A program made the position numbers and the translations under genes. The notes beneath the pieces are model-generated. The model saw only the letters and a program-made list of their open reading frames with translations. It was not told the origin of the DNA and ran no database searches. Below, in pieces: positions 1-26,094 of a DNA stretch of 30,521 nt (position 1 is the first letter of the stretch; each line of letters begins with the position of its first letter). Source of the stretch: a virus; IMG/VR virus record IMGVR_UViG_3300046012_000056, positions 1 to 30,521 of that record; one strand, 5' to 3'.

Positions 1-55
1 ATGAGAACTCCGTGCCGCAGTCGACGAAACCCGCCCGAAGCGCGACGACGATCCC

Positions 56-1522
56 GTGTTCGATCCGAGCTCGATCGAAGGCGTGCCCTGGCTGGCCGAT
101 CTCGCACCTGCGCCGCCCGATTTCAGTTGGCCGCGTTACATGACCGGACAGCATCCGCTCGCCGTCGGCAGCTACGGCGCCGACGCCGAAGCGTGGATCG
201 CGGAAGCGCACGGCGTCGAGCTGCGGCACTGGCAGCGGCTCGCGCTGCGTCGCCAGCTCGAACACGACATCGACGGGCGGCTCGTCTGGCAGACCGTGAT
301 CGAGTCGACGCCGCGCCGGGCGGGCAAGTCGATCCGGCTGCGCTGCGTGGCGCTGTACCGCATCGCGCACGCCGAGCTGTTCGGCGAGCAGCAGCTTGCG
401 CTGCACACGGGCAAAGACGCGTTCATCGCTCGCGAGATTCATCGGCGCGCCTGGAATTGGGCGAAGTCGTACGGCTGGCACGTGCGGCAGCAGAACGGCA
501 GCGAGGAGATCGAGACGACCGACGGCTCGCGCTGGCTCGTGCGTGGCACGCCGAGCGTCTACGGGTACGACGTCGGGCTCGGCATCATCGACGAAGGCTG
601 GGGCGTCGACGCGATCGTCGTCGACGACGGGCTCGAACCGGCGCTCATGGAGCGGACGAATCCGCAGCTCTGGCTGCTGTCGACGGCGCACCGTCGGGCG
701 ACGTCGCTGATGCGCAAGCGGATCGACACGGCACTCGCCGAGCTGCGCGGCGATCGGGTCGACGACGACGTCGAAGGCGACACGCTGCTGATGCTGTGGT
801 GCGCCGGGCGCGACGACGACATCGGCGACCCGGCTGTGTGGCAGGCGGCGTCGCCGTACTGGTCGGAGCAGCGGCGCAAGATGATCGCGAGCAAGTACCG
901 CCGTGCGCAGGCTGGCGAAGCCGACGCCGAAGTCGACGACCCTGATCCGATCGAAGGGTTCCGCGCGCAATACCTGAACGTCTGGCCGCCCGCGTCGCGC
1001 AAGCGGGTCGCACCTGGGCGCCCGCTCGTGACGGCGTTCGAATGGTCGGCGGTGCACGTGTCGTCGCGTGCGAGCTCGACACCCGCGTGCGTCGCGATCG
1101 AGTCGTACTTTCACGAAGGCGTCGCTGCTGCGCTCGCCTGGGTCGTCGACGGGCGGGCGCAGGTCGACGTCGCCGCGTTCGCCGACGTGCCGCAGGCTGT
1201 CGCCTGGGCGCAGACGCGCATGCCGGGCGTCGTCGTCGTCGGCAAGTCGCTGCTCGCCGCGCCCGTCTTCCGCACGATCGCCGTCGAAGCCGTCGGCATG
1301 ACAGCTCGGGCCGCTGTCGAAGAGTTCCGTCGGATGCTCGACGCCGACTCGCTGCGTGTCGGCGACGCGGCTGTGCTCGACGAGCAGGTCGGGCTGCTGC
1401 GCACGCTGCCGGGCAACGATGGCCCGCGCGTGGTCAGCAAGGCACGGAACGACGCGATCAAAGCGACCGTCTGGGCGGCTCAGCGAGCGCTGTCGGCGCC
1501 CGAGCCCGCTCGCGTGTTCTGA
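56..1522 (+). CDS. terL: Phage terminase large subunit
   Basis: ATPase and nuclease motor that packages DNA into the prohead; 488 aa, a normal length. Visible motifs: a Walker A-type P-loop STPRRAGKS at residues 84-92, and a Walker B strand GLGIIDE whose acidic pair is D179-E180. The C-terminal half (from about residue 330) should be the RNase H-like nuclease; the last helix, with NDAIKATVWAAQRAL, is typical of actinophage terminases. The GTG at 56 is the first start codon in frame after a TGA at 2-4. Its ribosome site is poor, so translation may be coupled to a gene outside the window. No small terminase is seen before it. The portal follows 92 bases later. Confidence 0.93.
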   Translation: MFDPSSIEGVPWLADLAPAPPDFSWPRYMTGQHPLAVGSYGADAEAWIAEAHGVELRHWQRLALRRQLEHDIDGRLVWQTVIESTPRRAGKSIRLRCVALYRIAHAELFGEQQLALHTGKDAFIAREIHRRAWNWAKSYGWHVRQQNGSEEIETTDGSRWLVRGTPSVYGYDVGLGIIDEGWGVDAIVVDDGLEPALMERTNPQLWLLSTAHRRATSLMRKRIDTALAELRGDRVDDDVEGDTLLMLWCAGRDDDIGDPAVWQAASPYWSEQRRKMIASKYRRAQAGEADAEVDDPDPIEGFRAQYLNVWPPASRKRVAPGRPLVTAFEWSAVHVSSRASSTPACVAIESYFHEGVAAALAWVVDGRAQVDVAAFADVPQAVAWAQTRMPGVVVVGKSLLAAPVFRTIAVEAVGMTARAAVEEFRRMLDADSLRVGDAAVLDEQVGLLRTLPGNDGPRVVSKARNDAIKATVWAAQRALSAPEPARVF

Positions 1523-1614
1523 GCGACGCGAGTAGCCTGCGCAGCAGCAACGCGAAGTGTCCGCGTTCATCAGCGCCCAGTGTCGGGCCCGGCTTCGATC
1601 AGTCAGGTTTCGAC

Positions 1615-3051
1615 ATGCCGCGACGCATCGCAGGTTTGCAGCAGCGGGCTAGGTACGCGCGATCCGGCGCGAACGACATGCTCGTGAACGATCCCGTCGG
1701 CTTCCCGAGCGCATACCCGCCGATCGCGTGGCTCGGCGGCGGCGGGTACGGCGCTTCTGACTGGTGGTTCGGGCTCGACAGCGGCGGCGGCGCGACACCG
1801 ATCGGCCCGAACGGGCCCTACACGAGCGGCGCCCAGGGTCAGGCTGTCGTCACCCGTGCGACGTCGCTGATCGTCGGGCCGCTGTGCGCGGCGCCGTACC
1901 GCGTCGTGAGCGACGGCAGCATCGGCGAGCCCGTGACGCCTACGCCGAGCTGGCTGCGCGACCCGATGCTGCTGCGACCCGATGACCGCATGGGCACGTC
2001 GGTGTATCCGAGCGTGCTGCGGCTGTCGCGCTCGTCGTTCTGGGGCGGCTTCGTCAGGTCGGCGCTCTGGTTCGGGCTGGGCGCGTTCATCGACGAGCCG
2101 AGCGCGCCCGACGTGAACGGGCGCCCAGGGCAGCCGAAGGCGGGAAGCTGCAAGCTCGTCGACCCGCGCTATCTGTCGACGGTGCGCGCCGACGACGGCT
2201 CGCTGCGATGGTCGCTCGACGCGGGCGACGGCGATGCGGCGACGTTCGATCGTGACGGCTTCCTGACGCTCGGCTCGATCACGTATCGCATCACCGTGAT
2301 GCGTAACCCGCTGTCGCCCGTCGACGTCGAAGGTATGAGCTTCGGCGTCTTCGCGATGTCGCCCGACGCCTTCCTGCTCGGCGATCAGATCACGTCGTAC
2401 ATGTCGGGCACGTTCCGCAGCGGCGTGCCCGCTGGCTACCTGAAGACGGAGACGCCCGGATTCACGCAGCAGCAGGCCGACGAGCTGAAAGCGAGCTGGA
2501 TGTTCGCGCACGGCGGCGACCGGCGCAGCATCGCGGTGCTGAACGCGACGACGTCGTTCACGCCGCTGACGTTCTCGCCCGTCGACGCCGCGATCGGCGA
2601 GTCGAAGCGGCTCGCGATCGCCGACGTCGCCTTCGCCTTCGGCGAGGACCCTGTGACGCTGAACGTGTCGCTCGCGAACAGCGCGACGTACAACAACGTG
2701 CGCGACGCCTGGGTGAATCATCGCGACTACGCGCTGTCGCCCTGGGTGACAGCGGTGCAGGACACGCTGAGCGCGCTGCTGCCGGGCACGAACGGCGTGC
2801 TCGTCTCGCTCGACAGCTTCGCCCAGCCGTCGCTGCACGAGCGGGTCGAAACAGGGAAGCTCGCCGTCGACGCTGGGCTAATCACGGTCGACGAGTGGCG
2901 CGAATCCGAAGGGCTGCCGCCGCTGCCCGAGCCCGAGCCGAAGCCGATCCCGCCGCAGTTGCAGCCGTTCGTCGGTGCTCCCGCCGAGCCGCCCGAAGGC
3001 GAGCCCGCGCCCGTGCCAGCGCGGGCCCGCCCGACGGCGCTGCGCCGATGA
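1615..3051 (+). CDS. Portal protein, HK97 type
   Basis: Forms the dodecameric ring at the capsid vertex through which DNA enters and to which the tail joins; 478 aa from the ATG at 1615. The segment GVPAGYLKTETPG, followed by a long helix and SIAVLNATTSFTPL, then IADVAFAFGEDP, is the core pattern of the HK97-type portal family. The C-terminal 60 residues are Pro/Glu-rich and probably disordered. The reading frame is open further upstream into the terminase gene, but that part is arginine-rich shadow sequence, so I start at MPRRIAG; a second Met (codon at 1678) is possible. The stop overlaps the next start as ATGA. Confidence 0.9.
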   Translation: MPRRIAGLQQRARYARSGANDMLVNDPVGFPSAYPPIAWLGGGGYGASDWWFGLDSGGGATPIGPNGPYTSGAQGQAVVTRATSLIVGPLCAAPYRVVSDGSIGEPVTPTPSWLRDPMLLRPDDRMGTSVYPSVLRLSRSSFWGGFVRSALWFGLGAFIDEPSAPDVNGRPGQPKAGSCKLVDPRYLSTVRADDGSLRWSLDAGDGDAATFDRDGFLTLGSITYRITVMRNPLSPVDVEGMSFGVFAMSPDAFLLGDQITSYMSGTFRSGVPAGYLKTETPGFTQQQADELKASWMFAHGGDRRSIAVLNATTSFTPLTFSPVDAAIGESKRLAIADVAFAFGEDPVTLNVSLANSATYNNVRDAWVNHRDYALSPWVTAVQDTLSALLPGTNGVLVSLDSFAQPSLHERVETGKLAVDAGLITVDEWRESEGLPPLPEPEPKPIPPQLQPFVGAPAEPPEGEPAPVPARARPTALRR

Positions 3052-3233
3052 GAGCCGAGCAGCGCGTCGACGAGCTCAGGTCGCACGCGCTCGCGCTGCT
3101 GATAAAACGCGGCGTGCATGCGAGCCAGCGCGGATGGTGCGCAAACACGCCGCTCATGGTCGCGCGCTGGCTGATCGCCCAGGGCGTCACCCTTCCGCCG
3201 CCGCTCGTCGACGACGAGCAGGTCGAGCCGTGA
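3048..3233 (+). CDS. Small hypothetical protein in the head operon
   Basis: 61 aa, start ATG overlapping the portal stop by four bases (ATGA). It carries an N-terminal helix rich in Arg, Glu and Leu, then WCANTPLMVARWLIAQGV, which looks like a second amphipathic helix, and a short acidic tail. I do not recognise a family. Position between portal and protease suggests a minor head factor, but that is inference. It is linked by a further GTGA overlap to the next small gene. Confidence 0.7.
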   Translation: MRAEQRVDELRSHALALLIKRGVHASQRGWCANTPLMVARWLIAQGVTLPPPLVDDEQVEP

Positions 3234-3433
3234 GGGCGCGCGCACGCAAGCGGCTGCCGCGCTCGTCGTTCGCGCTGCCGTCGAAGCGTCTCTACCCGAT
3301 CGACACGAAGGCGCGAGCTCGGGCCGCGCTGTCGTACTCAGCTCGACGGAACACGCGCGGATCACCGAAGACGGTTCGCGCCGCCGTGCTGCGCAGGTAC
3401 CCGTCCCTGAGGAAGCGAGGCAAGCGCCGATGA
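3230..3433 (+). CDS. Small basic protein, possibly DUF6582-like
   Basis: 67 aa, very basic, with a GTG start overlapping the previous stop (GTGA). The pattern SSFALPSKRLYPIDTKARARAAL, then an Arg-rich stretch and TVRAAVLRRYPSL, resembles small phage and bacterial proteins of the type F-x-x-P-x-x-R-x-YPI...A..AL...V....P that I associate with DUF6582. I am unsure of the family name. Role unknown; found here between portal and prohead protease and linked to the next gene by an ATGA overlap. Confidence 0.65.
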   Translation: MRARARKRLPRSSFALPSKRLYPIDTKARARAALSYSARRNTRGSPKTVRAAVLRRYPSLRKRGKRR

Positions 3434-3576
3434 CGAACAAGAAGCAGACGCGACGAGAGGCGCGCGTCACGAAGCCGAGCAACGCGAAGCACGCGGCGCG
3501 CGAGCCCGAGCCCGAGCCGCTCGGGCAGCAGCCCGAGCCGAAGCGGCGCAGGAAGGCGGCAGACGATGACGACTGA
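3430..3576 (+). CDS. Short charged protein of unknown function
   Basis: 48 aa, too short for most gene finders. It starts ATGA on the preceding stop and ends inside the start region of the protease gene (ATG at 3566). It has a basic N-terminal half, a run of Glu-Pro dipeptides in the middle (EPEPEPLGQQPEPK), and a terminal acidic run of four Asp. It looks intrinsically disordered. No function can be assigned; it could serve mainly to couple translation into the protease gene. Confidence 0.55.
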   Translation: MTNKKQTRREARVTKPSNAKHAAREPEPEPLGQQPEPKRRRKAADDDD

Positions 3577-4135
3577 CGTGCTCGACGGCGTGCAGGTGCG
3601 CGCTGCTGTCGTCGGCGACGTCGACGACGACGGCATCGTCGAAGTGAAGATCGTTCCGTACGAAGTCGAAGCGCAGCTCGACGCAGGGCTGCATGAAGTC
3701 TTCACCGCTGGCGCCTTCGCTGGCGCCGTCGGCAACCCGAGCCGCTGCAAGATGACCGATCAGCAGCACGGGCGCAGCGTCGTGATCGGCAACGCGGTCG
3801 AGCTGCGCGACGAGCCCGACGGGCACTACGGGCGCATGCGGATCGCCGACACCGTCGCAGGGCGCGACGTGCTCACGCTGCTGCGCGCCCAGGTGCTCGA
3901 CGAGATCAGCGTCGAATTCCTGCCCGTTCGCAAGCACATGCGCGTGACGCGCCGCGAGGGCGGGCTGCTCGTGCGGCACGACAGGGCGACGCTGCTCGGG
4001 CTGTCGCCCGTCTCGGCGGGTGCCTATGGGCGCGACGCTCGGGTGCTGTCGGTGCGCGACGCCGAAGTCGACAGGGCGCGCGAGCGTGAACTTGCGTACC
4101 TCGCGAGTCTCGACGCGGGCCCGCGTCCGGCGTAG
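3566..4135 (+). CDS. Prohead maturation protease, HK97 (U35) type
   Basis: Serine protease that cleaves the capsid protein N-terminal delta domain during head maturation; 189 aa. The N-terminal part VVGDVDDDGIVEVKIVPYEVEAQLD matches the family's first strands. H68 (in QQHGR) and S115 (in LDEISVEF) sit where the catalytic His and Ser of the HK97 protease family lie; E117 is the usual acidic neighbour. It overlaps the previous gene by 11 bases and is followed by a 169-base gap and then its substrate, the capsid gene. Confidence 0.9.
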   Translation: MTTDVLDGVQVRAAVVGDVDDDGIVEVKIVPYEVEAQLDAGLHEVFTAGAFAGAVGNPSRCKMTDQQHGRSVVIGNAVELRDEPDGHYGRMRIADTVAGRDVLTLLRAQVLDEISVEFLPVRKHMRVTRREGGLLVRHDRATLLGLSPVSAGAYGRDARVLSVRDAEVDRARERELAYLASLDAGPRPA

Positions 4136-4304
4136 CGTCAGCGGCGACAGATGGTGCGAGCTTTGCCGCCCGTGACCGCGTCAGACAGCGCACGCAGACG
4201 CGCAGCCGAACATCAGGTGCCCGTCGTGCCCGTGAGTCGGCCCGGCAATCCGCGCGAAGCACACTCCCGCCGCTCAGTTTCGAGCGCGCCTGGGAGGCAC
4301 GCAC

Positions 4305-5480
4305 ATGTCTACTGCCGTACTTGACAAGCTCTGCACCGAACGCGACGAAGCGCGAGCCGCTGCCGTCGCCATCGCTGAGTCGGAAGACTTCACACCCGAA
4401 GACAAGACGTACGCCGAGCTGCGCTCACGTGCCACCGATCTCGACGCCCGCATCGCATCGCTCGCCGAGCTGGTCGAGCAGCAGTCGCAGGGCGACCTGC
4501 TCGACGCCCGCATCGCGAAGGCGGCGCAGCAGCGACAGCAGCGCGCCGACTCGCCGAGCTCGCGCGTGCCGCAGACGCGTGAGAGCTGGGGCGACGCGTT
4601 CGTTCGCAGTGATGAGTTCCGCAACTATCGCGGGCGCGGCACGAGCGGCATGTTCGGGCTCGACGACGTCGAGACGCGCGCGCTGCCGACGGGCATCAGT
4701 GACCTGATCGCCGCAGGGCTCACGTCGGCGAAGTACAGCGTCGATCTGACGGCGCCCGTCGCGCCGACGCCGCTCATGGACAACATCACGCAGATCACGG
4801 TCAGCGGCAACGCGATCGAATACGTGAGCTGGGCGAAGGTCGCAGGCGGCGCCGCGAAGGTCGCTGAGAAGGCGCCGAAGCCGTCGGCGGAATGGGCGCC
4901 GAGCGTCACTGCCGACACGCTCGACACCTGGGCGGTTTACACGCAGCTCACGCGTCAGCTCATCGAAGATTTCGCTGCCGTCCGGTCGCTGATCGACAGC
5001 GAGCTGCGGCGCGACATCATGCGCGCTGAGGAAGCCGACGGCGTCGCGGTGCTGGCGGCGGCGTCGGGCACGATTCCCGACGTCACGAGCACCGACAGCC
5101 TGCTCGCCGCGATCCGTATGGGCATCGGCACCGTGCAGGAAGCGGGCTACTCGCCGACGGCTGTGCTGCTCAACCCTGCCGACTGGGCGGCGATGGATGT
5201 CGCCATCATGGGCGACACCCTGAACGGGCCGCGCGTGAATCAGACGTTCTGGGGGATGACGCCGATCCCTGCGTCGTCACAGCCCGAAGGCACTGCCGTC
5301 GTCGGCGACTTCCGCAGCGCGATTCATCACTACGTGCGCTCGCAGATCAGCCTGTACGTGACCGACAGTCACGCCGACACCTTCCTGAGCAACGTGTTCA
5401 CGCTGCTGGCTGAGCGGCGCGGACTGACTGCCGTCGTGCGCCCGCAGGCGCTCGTCGAAGCAAAGGGCCCGACCCCGTGA
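4305..5480 (+). CDS. Major capsid protein, HK97 fold
   Basis: 391 aa, with a strong ribosome site (GGGAGG, seven bases before the ATG). Residues 1-75 are predicted coiled coil rich in Glu, Ala and Arg, which is the delta/scaffold domain removed by the protease; cleavage is expected near the SRVPQTRESWGDAF region or just after. The rest shows the HK97 order: LMDNITQITVSG (E-loop region), TWAVYTQLTRQLIEDF (spine helix), ILLNPADW-like AVLLNPADWAAMD, and the C-terminal VVGDFRSAIHHYVRSQISLYVTD with FTLLAERRGLTAVVRPQALV. The stop is overlapped by a GTG at 5477 inside a 14-base duplication. Confidence 0.93.
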   Translation: MSTAVLDKLCTERDEARAAAVAIAESEDFTPEDKTYAELRSRATDLDARIASLAELVEQQSQGDLLDARIAKAAQQRQQRADSPSSRVPQTRESWGDAFVRSDEFRNYRGRGTSGMFGLDDVETRALPTGISDLIAAGLTSAKYSVDLTAPVAPTPLMDNITQITVSGNAIEYVSWAKVAGGAAKVAEKAPKPSAEWAPSVTADTLDTWAVYTQLTRQLIEDFAAVRSLIDSELRRDIMRAEEADGVAVLAAASGTIPDVTSTDSLLAAIRMGIGTVQEAGYSPTAVLLNPADWAAMDVAIMGDTLNGPRVNQTFWGMTPIPASSQPEGTAVVGDFRSAIHHYVRSQISLYVTDSHADTFLSNVFTLLAERRGLTAVVRPQALVEAKGPTP

Positions 5481-22044: not shown

Positions 22045-22255
22045 CGCTCACGAGCCGAACCGTGCGCTCGTCGACGACGACGACGCGCTCGCCTGGGCGC
22101 TGCACCCGACGGGCCGCTGCCATCACGAGCGGGTGCACCCGAGCGACCGTGACGGGCGCCCTGCGCGCCTGCTCGGCGGCGCGAGCTCGGCGGTGCCGCG
22201 TGCCGTCGACGGGCTCGCTCACGGTCACGCTCGCGACGTCGCGCACGACGCTCAT
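22037..22255 (-). CDS. Small hypothetical protein
   Basis: 72 aa. ATG overlaps the ParB-like gene's stop (ATGA). It is Arg- and Val-rich, with a basic middle (RHRRARAAEQARRAPVTVARVHPLVMAAARRVQR) and a terminal strand pair GERVVVVDERTVRLVS. Not recognised. Its place in a tightly overlapped operon is the main reason to believe it is translated. Confidence 0.6.
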   Translation of the reverse strand: MSVVRDVASVTVSEPVDGTRHRRARAAEQARRAPVTVARVHPLVMAAARRVQRPGERVVVVDERTVRLVSDG

Positions 22256-23169
22256 GCTTCGGCCCGCTCACGCTCGGCTAGCTCGGCTTCGTGGCGCATC
22301 TGGGCAGCCATGACGGCGCCCGGCTCGATCGGCTTCGGCAGCGGCGACTGCCCTAGTCGGAACACGGTTAGCTGTCGGTCGCGCCCGAGCGCGTAGTCGT
22401 TCAATGCCGTGATGACGTTCGCGATGGTGATGATCTTGCGCTGCGTGAACGGCACGATCAGATAGCCGCTGTCGCCGATCAGCCAGCGGCGTAGAGACAG
22501 GATCGGCGACCGCGCGCCGAGCAGCACGCCGTCGGTGAGCCGCGCGGCAAACTCTGTTCGGATCGTCGGCGTGATGTCTGTCTGCTGGGTCATCACGTAC
22601 AGCAGCGCCGTCGACAGCGGCGTCGTCGCACCGAACCGTGAGATCGCCTGCGCGACCCGCCCGCCGTCAGTGATCGCCTGCACGGCGGCGGCGTGCTGAT
22701 CGTCGTCGGCGAGCCAATCGAGCATGTCGCCCGTCGTCACTGCGCGGTCTATGTCTTTCCAGCGATCGCCCGTCGTGCCTGCCACAGCCTCATAGCAGAT
22801 CAGCGCCCGGATGACGGCGGCGAGGATGTTCGTATTTTTGTAGCCCGCGATCCGCAGCGAGTCGGCGGGCGTGCGGGCCGCGCCCGTGTCGATCACGCCG
22901 AACATCGCAGGATCGGCGTCGCGGGTGACGAGCATCTTCACTGGCTTGTCGGCCCGCACGATCGCCGTCAGGCGGTGCTGACCGTCGAGCACGATGTTCT
23001 CGGGCCCGAGCGCGATGCCCTGGTGGGTGACCATCCATTGATCCGACTCGATCGCGTGCGTGAGCTTCGCTATGAGCCGCTGGCGCAGCCCGCGCTGCGT
23101 GAAATCCTCGCTCGCTTCGAGCCAGCGCCGGGCCATGTTCGGCGTGACCGTCTCAACCTTCGTGCGCAT
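22252..23169 (-). CDS. ParB-like (DGQHRL-motif) protein
   Basis: 305 aa from the ATG at 23169, which follows the shared leader AGGGAAGGAACCCC; an earlier Met in frame lacks this. The N-terminal 110 residues carry ARRWLEASEDFTQRGLRQRLIAKLTHAIESDQW, then IVLDGQHRLTAIVRADKPVKMLVTRD, then VIDTGAARTPADSL: the pattern of phage ParB/Srx-fold proteins (D-G-Q-H-R-L loop). The rest is helical. Such proteins bind nucleotide or DNA; a role in lysogen maintenance, partition or regulation is possible. It is second in the leftward operon, overlapping the HTH gene by 17 bases. Confidence 0.8.
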   Translation of the reverse strand: MRTKVETVTPNMARRWLEASEDFTQRGLRQRLIAKLTHAIESDQWMVTHQGIALGPENIVLDGQHRLTAIVRADKPVKMLVTRDADPAMFGVIDTGAARTPADSLRIAGYKNTNILAAVIRALICYEAVAGTTGDRWKDIDRAVTTGDMLDWLADDDQHAAAVQAITDGGRVAQAISRFGATTPLSTALLYVMTQQTDITPTIRTEFAARLTDGVLLGARSPILSLRRWLIGDSGYLIVPFTQRKIITIANVITALNDYALGRDRQLTVFRLGQSPLPKPIEPGAVMAAQMRHEAELAERERAEA

Positions 23170-23395
23170 CTGGGGTTCCTTCCCTGGGGGGGACGCTGCT
23201 GTCGTCGTCGCGGCGCTCGACGAGCAGCCGTTCGACATCGGTGCGAGCGAACCTCACGGCCCGCGATCCCGCAACCTTGTGTGAGGGCAGCCGTCCGTCG
23301 ACTGCCATGCGGTACACCGTGCGCACGTGCAGCGACAGGTACACGGCTGCCTGTCGAGCAGTGACGTACTGGCGGTGGGTCCAGTCGTCTGCCAT
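23153..23395 (-). CDS. Small HTH protein (excisionase/MerR-like), possible repressor
   Basis: 80 aa. YVTARQAAVYLSLHVRTVYRMAVDGRLPSHKVAGSRAVRF is the classic winged helix-turn-helix of the excisionase/MerR N-terminal class: T-x-x-x-A-A-x-x-L-x-V-x-x-x-T-V-Y-R-x-x-x-x-G-x-L-P. The acidic tail runs over the start of the ParB-like gene. It is the first leftward gene from the divergent control region, the position usual for an immunity repressor, but it has only the DNA-binding part. It could be repressor, excisionase or Cro-like. Confidence 0.8.
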   Translation of the reverse strand: MADDWTHRQYVTARQAAVYLSLHVRTVYRMAVDGRLPSHKVAGSRAVRFARTDVERLLVERRDDDSSVPPREGTPDAHEG

Positions 23396-23929: not shown

Positions 23930-24190
23930 ATGCCCGCATCACCTGCCGAACGGCGGCTCGCCGCCCAGGTCGCAGCGCACGCATCCTGGGCGATGACGCC
24001 CGATCGCAGCGCCCGCACCGCGAACGCGCGGGCCGCGCTGATGCAGCGATTCCTAGACGAAGCCGACGGCGACGTCGCGAAGGCTGAGTCGCTGCGACGG
24101 GCTCACTTCGCCCGGCTGTCGCTGGCATCGGCCCGAGCTCGGCGGCGCCGCGCTGGAATCGGCGAGGAAGACAGCGCGGTGTCGTCGTGA
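23930..24190 (+). CDS. Conserved small actinophage early protein
   Basis: 86 aa; ATG ten bases after GGAAGG (a GTG at 23906 is also in frame). SPAERRLAAQVAAHASWAMTPDRSARTANARAALMQRFLDEA, then LRRAHFARLSLASARARRRRA, is a pattern I recall from many actinophage and actinobacterial genomes (H-x-S-W-A-x-T-x-D-R-x-A-R-T). Function unknown. It overlaps the exonuclease start (GTGA). Confidence 0.8.
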   Translation: MPASPAERRLAAQVAAHASWAMTPDRSARTANARAALMQRFLDEADGDVAKAESLRRAHFARLSLASARARRRRAGIGEEDSAVSS

Positions 24191-24969
24191 GCAGCCGTCT
24201 GGTCGTCACGGGCGGCAGGTTCCACAGGTACTCGCTCGACGGCGTCATCGTGCCGAGCGTCACGGGCATCACGGGCAAGATCGACAAGCCTGGGCTCGCG
24301 GGCGCCGCCGCTCGCGAAGTCGCGCACTGGGCGGCGACGCACGCGGGTGAGCTCGACGCCCAGGGCGAAGCCGAATGGATCGACAGCGCGAAGGGCAGCT
24401 ATCAGCGAGTGTGGAACCGCTCGCGCGACAACGGCACGGCGGTGCACGCGATCGCTCAGCAGCTCATCTTCGGCGAGCCCGTCGAGACGACCGACCCTGA
24501 CACGGGCGTGCCGTACAGCGACGACGTCGTGCGGATGGGCGCCCAGGTCGCTCAATTCATGGACCTGTGGCACGTGTCGCCCGACACGGCGCTCGTCGAG
24601 CAGCCCGTCTTTCACGACGAGCTGCGGTACGCCGGGCGCTTCGACCTGTGCGGCGTGCTGCGCGGCGGCGACCGCTGGCTGATCGACTACAAGACGAGCG
24701 CGTCGGGCGTCTACCCCGAATCGGCGCTACAGCTCACGGCGTACAGCCGAGCGACGCACGTGCAGATCGGCGACCGCGACATGCTGATGCCGCCCGTGAG
24801 CCGCTGCGCCGTGCTCTGGGTGCGCCCTGACTTCTGGGAGCTCGTGCCCGTCAAGTCGGACGACGCGACCTGGGCCGCGTTCACTCACCTGCTCGCCGTC
24901 ACGGGCTGGCTGTCACAGAAGCGCGACGACGTCGTCGGCGGCGCCCTGCCCGTTCCGGTGGGCGCATGA
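24187..24969 (+). CDS. RecB/Cas4-like PD-(D/E)XK exonuclease
   Basis: 260 aa, GTG start. Nuclease motifs in order: H87 (NGTAVHAIAQQ), E138 (LVEQPVF), D153 (YAGRFDLCGV), D167-Y-K169 (WLIDYKTSAS) and Q182/Y186 (ESALQLTAYSRA), as in the RecB/Cas4/lambda-exonuclease-like group, without the Cas4 iron-sulfur cysteines. It probably makes 3' single strands for the RecT protein encoded at 26850-28151, so the two form a recombination pair split by five other genes. It overlaps the transporter gene by four bases. Confidence 0.88.
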   Translation: MSSRLVVTGGRFHRYSLDGVIVPSVTGITGKIDKPGLAGAAAREVAHWAATHAGELDAQGEAEWIDSAKGSYQRVWNRSRDNGTAVHAIAQQLIFGEPVETTDPDTGVPYSDDVVRMGAQVAQFMDLWHVSPDTALVEQPVFHDELRYAGRFDLCGVLRGGDRWLIDYKTSASGVYPESALQLTAYSRATHVQIGDRDMLMPPVSRCAVLWVRPDFWELVPVKSDDATWAAFTHLLAVTGWLSQKRDDVVGGALPVPVGA

Positions 24970-25493
24970 TGCGCCCTCAGCTCGCCCTGCCTGCGGCGGC
25001 GGCTGGGTTCCTTGCGTGCATCGTCGCTGCCAACTGGGCGACGTCGCACTATGGGCTAGTGCCCGTGCTGTTCGGGCTGTCGGCGACGGCGGGCACCTAC
25101 TTCGCTGGCGGCACCTTCGTGCTGCGCGACACCGTGCAGGACGAAGGTGGGCGCGAGTCTGTGCTGCTGCTGATCGTCGTCGGCGCCGCCCTGTCGTTCG
25201 TCGTCGGCTCGGGTCGCATCGCGGTCGCGTCGGGCGCCGCGTTCCTGCTCTCAGAGCTCGCAGACTTCGTCGTTTACACGCCGCTGCGCCGACGCGGGTA
25301 CGTGCGCGCCGCGATCGCGAGCAACGTCGTCGGCACGCTCGTCGACACGTTCGCGTTCCTGTGGCTGGCTGGCTTCGCGATCGTCGGCGCCGTCGTCGCA
25401 GGGCAGCTCGTCGCGAAGCTCACCGTTACCGCGCTCGGCGCCGTGCTCGCGCTGGGGGTGAGCCGTGCTGTATCTCGCGAACCCGTCGACTGA
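24966..25493 (+). CDS. VUT/YhhQ-type transporter, probable preQ0 importer
   Basis: 175 aa integral membrane protein with about five or six helices (residues 5-22, 30-46, 65-85, 86-100, 118-142, 146-165). ANWATSHYGLVPVLFGLSATAGTYFAGGTFVLRDTVQD, then SGAAFLLSELADFVVYTPLRRRGYVRAAIASNVVGTLVDTFAFL, matches the VUT family (queuosine-precursor transporter YhhQ), notably S-E-x-x-D and Y-T-P-L-x-R-R. YhhQ in E. coli takes up the 7-deazaguanine precursors preQ0 and preQ1. Its stop lies 29 bases inside the transglycosylase gene, tying the two together. Confidence 0.85.
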   Translation: MMRPQLALPAAAAGFLACIVAANWATSHYGLVPVLFGLSATAGTYFAGGTFVLRDTVQDEGGRESVLLLIVVGAALSFVVGSGRIAVASGAAFLLSELADFVVYTPLRRRGYVRAAIASNVVGTLVDTFAFLWLAGFAIVGAVVAGQLVAKLTVTALGAVLALGVSRAVSREPVD

Positions 25494-26094
25494 CGCGATC
25501 ATCGCCGCGATGCACGCGGGCGTGCTCGGGCTGCTCGATCAGCCTGGGCAGCGGGCGCTGACCCGCGTCGGCGGCGTCGTGCCCTGGGCTGCCGACAATG
25601 GCTGCTTCGCGAAGCGCTGGGATGAGGCGAGCTGGTGGCGCTTCCTGTGGAACCGTCGAGCTCACGTCGGGCGCTGTTTGTTCGCCGCCGTGCCCGACGT
25701 GCTCGGCGACGCGGCTGCGACGCGGGTGCTGTTCGCTGAGTACGCCGTCGCGGTGCGCGGGCTCGGCTTCCCTGTCGCCTACGTCGCCCAGGACGGCTCA
25801 GACGTCGTGGCGCCGCCCTGGGATCAGCTCGACGTGCTGTTTGTCGGCGGGTCGACGATTTTCAAGCTCGGGCCCGTCGCGCGGGCGCTGATCTCGCAGG
25901 CACACGGGCGCGGCAAACGGGTGCACTTCGGGCGCGTCAACAGCGGCAAGCGATTCGAGTACGCGCGGGCGCTCGGCGCTCACACCTGCGACGGCACGTT
26001 TATGACCATCGCGCCCGACACGAACCTGCCGCGCCTGCTGCGCTGGCTCGACAAGTCGCAGCCCGTGCTTTTCAACCTGGGAGGGAACGAATAA
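25465..26094 (+). CDS. DpdA-like guanine transglycosylase (7-deazaguanine insertion)
   Basis: 209 aa, GTG start inside the transporter gene after GGGGTGAG. It resembles phage proteins of the tRNA-guanine transglycosylase (TGT)/DpdA group. In order: VPWAADNGCF (D44-N45), LFAAVPDVLGDAAAT (D78), VAYVAQDGS, VLFVGGSTIFKLG, KRVHFGRVNSGKRFEYA (H154 to S160) and THTCDGT-like HTCDGTF (D176). By analogy with TGT, D44 (ADNG, compare DSGG), the VGGS loop and D176 would be base-exchange residues; that mapping is my inference. It lacks the Cys-rich TGT zinc site and is short, so DNA rather than tRNA is the likelier substrate. The stop overlaps the next start (TAATG). Confidence 0.78.
   Translation: MLYLANPSTDAIIAAMHAGVLGLLDQPGQRALTRVGGVVPWAADNGCFAKRWDEASWWRFLWNRRAHVGRCLFAAVPDVLGDAAATRVLFAEYAVAVRGLGFPVAYVAQDGSDVVAPPWDQLDVLFVGGSTIFKLGPVARALISQAHGRGKRVHFGRVNSGKRFEYARALGAHTCDGTFMTIAPDTNLPRLLRWLDKSQPVLFNLGGNE

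Follow-up and report, generated by a model that had tools for sequence, protein, structure and literature searches.

Two overlapping genes in IMG/VR record IMGVR_UViG_3300046012_000056 probably form a salvage-type module for the modification of DNA with 7-deazaguanine, in which a VUT/YhhQ-type transporter is paired with a member of a compact subfamily of the DpdA transglycosylases. The record is a linear virus fragment of 30.5 kb, and this whole stretch is referred to here as the window. During infection the transporter would import a 7-deazaguanine base, of which preQ0 is the most likely, and the compact enzyme, for which the name DpdS is used here, would exchange guanine in the phage DNA for the imported base. 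The modified base would probably mask sites from restriction.

The GC content of the window is ~70%. Genes for portal, major head, tape-measure and tail proteins are followed by a block in the order exonuclease, VUT, enzyme, HNH and RecT. A megablast search with the initial 25 kb of the window did not find a close named relative. The gene pair and its context are as follows.

24187..24969, plus strand: context gene, PDDEXK-type phage exonuclease (PHROG_298 exonuclease, 2e-40)
24966..25493, plus strand: Vut_1/YhhQ-type transporter, ATG start, 175 aa, six membrane helices predicted
25465..25493, plus strand: overlap of the transporter and enzyme genes, 29 nt, seen in the sequence
25465..26094, plus strand: predicted compact DpdA-type guanine transglycosylase (DpdS), GTG start, 209 aa
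26850..28151, plus strand: context gene in the same DNA-metabolism block, RecT-like annealing protein (PHROG_4171, 1.5e-39)

The preliminary description had placed two overlapping genes at 24966-26094, and both ORFs are found there, together with every motif that had been quoted for them. The GTG start of the enzyme lies within the transporter gene and is preceded by the purine-rich GGGGGTGAG; at ~30 loci the overlap is conserved, with ~26 nt common to the transporter and enzyme matches. The stop codon of the exonuclease likewise overlaps the transporter start (ATGA). Profile searches for folE, queD, queE and queC, and the Pfam QueC and PTPS models, identified none of these genes in the 30.5 kb fragment, in agreement with the preliminary description, and a long dpdA was not detected in the window. 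A gene for a DGQHR/ParB-like protein (PHROG_5931), which resembles DndB/DpdB proteins, lies 2 kb from the module on the minus strand (22252-23238). It was considered as a DpdB-like partner and rejected, since its relatives are absent near the enzyme at other loci.

The transporter ORF matches Pfam Vut_1 with an E-value of 2.5e-10 and 41.3 bits, above the curated cut-off of 27.2, and in this it is like the known YhhQ/Vut_1 queuosine-precursor transporters. It is shorter than these (175 aa as against ~220 aa), with the Vut_1 match in the C-terminal half. The match to TIGR00697, "queuosine precursor transporter", scored 46 bits (5e-12; the equivalog cut-off is 50.95), and PHROG_4899 was matched at 3e-39. 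The AF2 model of the transporter (pLDDT 93.1) has six helices (7-29, 44-61, 63-80, 83-108, 112-135 and 141-169), and residues N23, R54, D55, E97, D100, D127 and K151 are invariant among 25 relatives. The assignment to the VUT/YhhQ type is upheld by the Vut_1 match. Comparison of the model with solved structures in the PDB gave no significant match, only a weak likeness to six-helix ECF S-components. The VUT family name rests partly on inference, and the family may have other substrates.

The enzyme ORF belongs to no family in Pfam or NCBIfam; it matches PHROG_15826, a family of unknown function, with an E-value of 1e-64. Relatives were found in 22 named phage records, 316 IMG/VR stretches and 25 bacterial genomes, and its occurrence is thus far above chance. 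The IMG/VR relatives were found with a profile built from seven sequences; a scan of IMG/VR using a single protein sequence found nothing. In close relatives dN/dS is ~0.03-0.16 for most phage pairs, and 0.25 in one near-identical pair. Mycobacterium phage Bhagsy gp55, Arthrobacter phage Aoka gp40 and Sonali gp81, all three annotated "DpdA-like tRNA-guanine transglycosylase", and ReqiPine5 gp03 are 47-51% identical to the window enzyme. Bhagsy, Aoka and ReqiPine5 have the same transporter neighbour, which Sonali lacks; the "DpdA-like" names of these actinophage proteins are annotation only.

Direct comparison of the enzyme sequence with PDB chains, and likewise with Pfam, gave chance matches only, and none of 74 enzyme relatives matched the TGT profile PF01702. 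The AF2 model, built with the 74 relatives, has a mean pLDDT of 94.8 and shows alternating strands and helices, with eight strands in all; the 209 residues are thus predicted to form a complete (beta/alpha)8 barrel, the chain stopping one helix past strand 8. TGT entries dominate the structural comparison (Z ~14, rmsd 3.0-3.2 Å, ~196 residues), with Zymomonas TGT at Z 14.4 and rmsd 3.0 Å over 196 residues. Pyruvate kinases equal TGT in Z, the top pyruvate kinase chain being at rmsd 5.3 Å, and the better matches among viral models include phage "queuine tRNA-ribosyltransferase" proteins such as Sonali gp87. Absence of a TGT-type barrel would have counted against the preliminary description; structure prediction and fold search found a complete one. 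Foldseek by itself placed transaldolases and other barrels above TGT, and the fold alone was therefore not accepted as proof. Since the barrel alone proves little, we turned to profile comparison.

HHalign comparison of the compact family to 71 phage DpdA1 sequences gave a probability of 96.2, an E-value of 2.3e-9 and a score of 68; the maximum for column-shuffled controls was 21, and the reversed target scored 18. Against the group of CP220 and immuto, which we take to be the one called DpdA3, the E-value was 2.5e-5 and the score 42 (null maximum 27), the significant part of the alignment spanning ~57 columns. DpdA1 and DpdA3 compared with each other scored 57. Because the scores of the compact family to DpdA1 and DpdA3 are comparable to this one, these profiles indicate that it is a separate DpdA lineage, about as distant from DpdA1 as DpdA3 is. 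The comparison with genuine TGT scored 18.1, inside the range of the shuffled controls; this is not significant, and we therefore make no claim that the enzyme belongs to the tRNA enzyme family. The description of the enzyme as TGT/DpdA-like stands in the sense that its predicted barrel is near TGT in fold and its profile homology is to phage DpdA1 and DpdA3.

The compact enzyme and phage DpdA1 (CAjan, 9g, Rosebush; PMC6884629) share the D-N/S-G, D-V-x-G-D, GG and C-terminal Asp motifs. They differ in length (~205 aa and ~230-310 aa, respectively), in the VxQDG and HxGRVNS..R motifs of the compact enzyme, which were not seen in the aligned DpdA1 proteins, and in that the compact enzyme, unlike DpdA1, usually occurs without biosynthesis genes. 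The DpdA3-type proteins of Campylobacter phage CP220 and Flavobacterium phage immuto have DN, VPDxxGD and VxQG motifs in common with the compact enzyme; they are 263 aa long and are found in large myophages, and the immuto relatives are annotated as DNA guanine transglycosylase. Bacterial TGT resembles the compact enzyme in its barrel and in the order of its active-site residues, but is ~370 aa long with a zinc subdomain, and the sequence similarity is non-significant. The preliminary description had called the enzyme, here 209 aa, much shorter than bacterial TGT or DpdA.

Twelve residues are invariant in all 74 relatives (Asp44, Pro77, Asp78, Gln109, Phe126, Gly129, His154, Gly156, Arg157, Arg163, Asp176 and Gly177), and these lie mostly at the ends of the predicted barrel strands. 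The codons of the putative active site are the following.

25594..25596, plus strand: Asp44 (ADNGCF), end of strand 3, 74/74, aligns with DSGA of DpdA1
25696..25698, plus strand: Asp78 (PDVLGD), end of strand 4, 74/74, aligns with LDVIGD of DpdA1
25789..25791, plus strand: Gln109 (VAQDG), end of strand 5, 74/74, aligns with VxQG of TGT
25846..25851, plus strand: Gly128-Gly129 (VGGST), end of strand 6, 73/74 and 74/74
25990..25992, plus strand: Asp176 (TCDGT), end of strand 8, 74/74, aligns with FD of TGT

The local HHalign alignment with TGT, itself non-significant, places VAQDG on VxQG, VGG on IGG and TCD on FD. The invariant residues presumably follow the order of the catalytic and base-reading residues of TGT: we take Asp44 to be the equivalent of the DSGG aspartate, Asp176 that of the nucleophilic Asp, and Gln109 to be a TGT-like base-reading Gln. 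In the model, strand 3 ends at Asp44 and strand 8 at Asp176, and these two are the putative catalytic aspartates. The exchange would be a TGT-like double displacement, in which Asp176 would attack the sugar and guanine would depart; the imported base would then be placed, with Asp44 as the general acid/base. The 209 residues leave no zinc subdomain after the barrel, and CxCxxC is absent from the window protein. In three relatives (L040:2090-2782, L058 and L070), and partly in a fourth (L062), the GG of strand 6 is immediately followed by a zinc-ribbon-like insertion (CxxC...CPxC). A protein of 499 aa from an uncultured marine virus (BFVD A0A0F7L9Z1) aligns with the compact enzyme at 27% identity across 208 columns, and a further domain may be fused to it.

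The barrel fold, the several TGT-like motif positions and Gln109, for which the alignment of five DpdA1 proteins showed no equivalent, could also be read as signs of a small TGT that restores or alters the wobble modification of host tRNA during infection, with the transporter importing preQ0, preQ1 or queuine. We consider this unlikely, given that the profile homology is with DpdA1 and DpdA3 and not with TGT, and that the protein has neither the zinc site nor an extra TGT domain. Some hosts of the VUT-enzyme pair (G031, G032, G033, G035 and G037) are moreover without a TGT gene, and the neighbours of the enzyme are DNA recombination and replication genes, including DNA polymerase in phiG7 and R29Z, as well as cytosine methylases.

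The genomic partners of the enzyme link it to the supply of preQ0. Among 113 enzyme-bearing loci, 69 have VUT, within 430 nt of the enzyme in 65 of the 69 and within 531 nt in 68. Thirteen others have QueC, QueD, QueE or FolE within 3.3 kb, mostly adjoining the enzyme; four have both VUT and Que-type genes and the remainder have neither. When redundancy is removed, 58 of 80 relatives have VUT and/or Que genes (QueC/D/E) within 10 kb (VUT in 45, Que in 12, both in 1, neither in 22). VUT and Que genes avoid each other in this set of 80 used for the tree (p 8e-5 by Fisher's test, which ignores kinship), and partners switch on the family tree with 20 changes, compared to 30.8 with shuffled labels; support is poor for many branches of this tree. 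The next most common neighbour on the sense strand is a DNA cytosine methylase (~14/105). A search of 21 VUT contigs, the window among them, with the Pfam QueC and PTPS models found neither gene in any, while the positive controls were detected. The compact enzyme adjoins QueC/D/E on seven contigs without a long DpdA1 (L012, L027, L030, L033, L037, L040 and L041), and L040, which is 65 kb in length and has no long DpdA, shows a clean operon of QueC, QueD, QueE and the enzyme. In L012 (positions 1-4956) the compact enzyme is present in three tandem copies, between which lie two QueC-like genes; QueE and QueD follow.

VUT is a partner of DpdA1 as well, in five unrelated phages. Pectobacterium phage PEAT2, Rhizobium phages N3_2 and X2_30, Pseudanabaena phage Pam5 and Sinorhizobium phage phiLM21 have VUT with a different enzyme, a DpdA1-family protein (hmmsearch E-values from 3.5e-22 to 2.8e-7) that adjoins VUT or lies within ~600 nt of it; in the PEAT2 record VUT is annotated next to a queuine tRNA-ribosyltransferase. 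The link of transporter and enzyme that the preliminary description drew from one locus is thus seen in most relatives, as VUT or preQ0 synthesis genes beside the enzyme, and in these five phages with a DpdA1-type protein. CAjan has VUT although this phage makes preQ0 itself; import is not obviously needed there, and need not be the sole role of VUT. Mycobacterium phage Techage, which is related to the Bhagsy group, has a VUT truncated to 110 aa (gp52; L232) and lacks the enzyme gene; it looks as if the module was deleted jointly.

In some genomes the compact enzyme occurs alongside both a long DpdA and genes for preQ0 synthesis (Sonali, R29Z, phiG7/SHIN8, L020 and L077), and there it might be an accessory to another transglycosylase, acting on a second motif, in proofreading or in base removal, and not the main inserter. 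As a general account this is improbable: a long DpdA was not seen on most of the carrier contigs, some of which are 57-130 kb long, and in several operons the compact enzyme is the sole transglycosylase beside QueC/D/E. Arthrobacter phage Sonali (L010/L005) has the compact enzyme as gp81 and the long DpdA as gp87, along with ParB-like, QueC, QueD, QueE and FolE genes. In two Seuratvirus isolates, Escherichia phage phiG7 (L004:7941-8533) and SHIN8 (L231:2941-3533), the compact gene lies next to DNA polymerase and is broken at an identical position into two frames that overlap; both genomes encode the long DpdA and preQ0 synthesis as well. Such a gene was not seen in CAjan.

Chromosomal copies of the enzyme form a clade in Streptosporangiaceae (L101, L105, L106, L108-L111 and L113), in the genera Nonomuraea, Planotetraspora, Thermocatellispora and Sphaerimonospora. 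VUT, TGT and a convincing QueC were not found in these carrier genomes. Some copies adjoin a C5 cytosine methylase, that of L105 lying directly behind one, and their dN/dS of 0.26-0.34 is above the phage values. These copies may have some other role. Their genomes, without a visible source of preQ0, and the fact that VUT substrate specificity is not readable from sequence would suit an enzyme that uses a different base or nucleoside, with VUT carrying another vitamin-like compound, but the repeated exchange of VUT and QueC, QueD or QueE beside the same enzyme indicates a 7-deazaguanine, and this alternative is improbable.

Part of the salvage explanation is known already. Hutinet et al. (2019; PMC6884629) listed 76 phages that have DpdA without preQ0 genes and proposed the host or the medium as the source; they noted YhhQ in some phages, uncorrelated with any phage group, and did not settle if phages with DpdA alone have modified DNA. 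The DNA of Orion, a DpdA-only mycobacteriophage, was unmodified after growth on M. smegmatis (PMC6884629); this speaks against the module, but would also fit a requirement for external preQ0, without proving it. As the idea of uptake by DpdA-only phages has been published (PMC6884629), and close relatives of the enzyme bear SEA-PHAGES "DpdA-like" names in GenBank, it would overstate the case to call the module a new system. What is added here is the test of relationship, the recognition that hundreds of phage contigs carry a compact lineage of DpdA, and the rule of import or synthesis along with its generality.

Among the DNA guanine transglycosylase lineages compared here, the compact one would be the smallest. 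We suggest, tentatively, that this subfamily of ~205 residues acts alone and that, in hosts without queuosine metabolism, phages with it modify their DNA only if they can scavenge a 7-deazaguanine from the environment. The genetic rule, an enzyme accompanied by an importer or by a synthesis operon, predicts 7-deazaguanine DNA in phages that have no synthesis pathway, and the pairing predicts that DpdA-only phages are modified only when preQ0 is supplied, for which the collection isolates Bhagsy, Aoka and ReqiPine5 are suitable. If this is true, the protection of phage DNA would depend on an environmental micronutrient acquired through an importer that the virus itself encodes.
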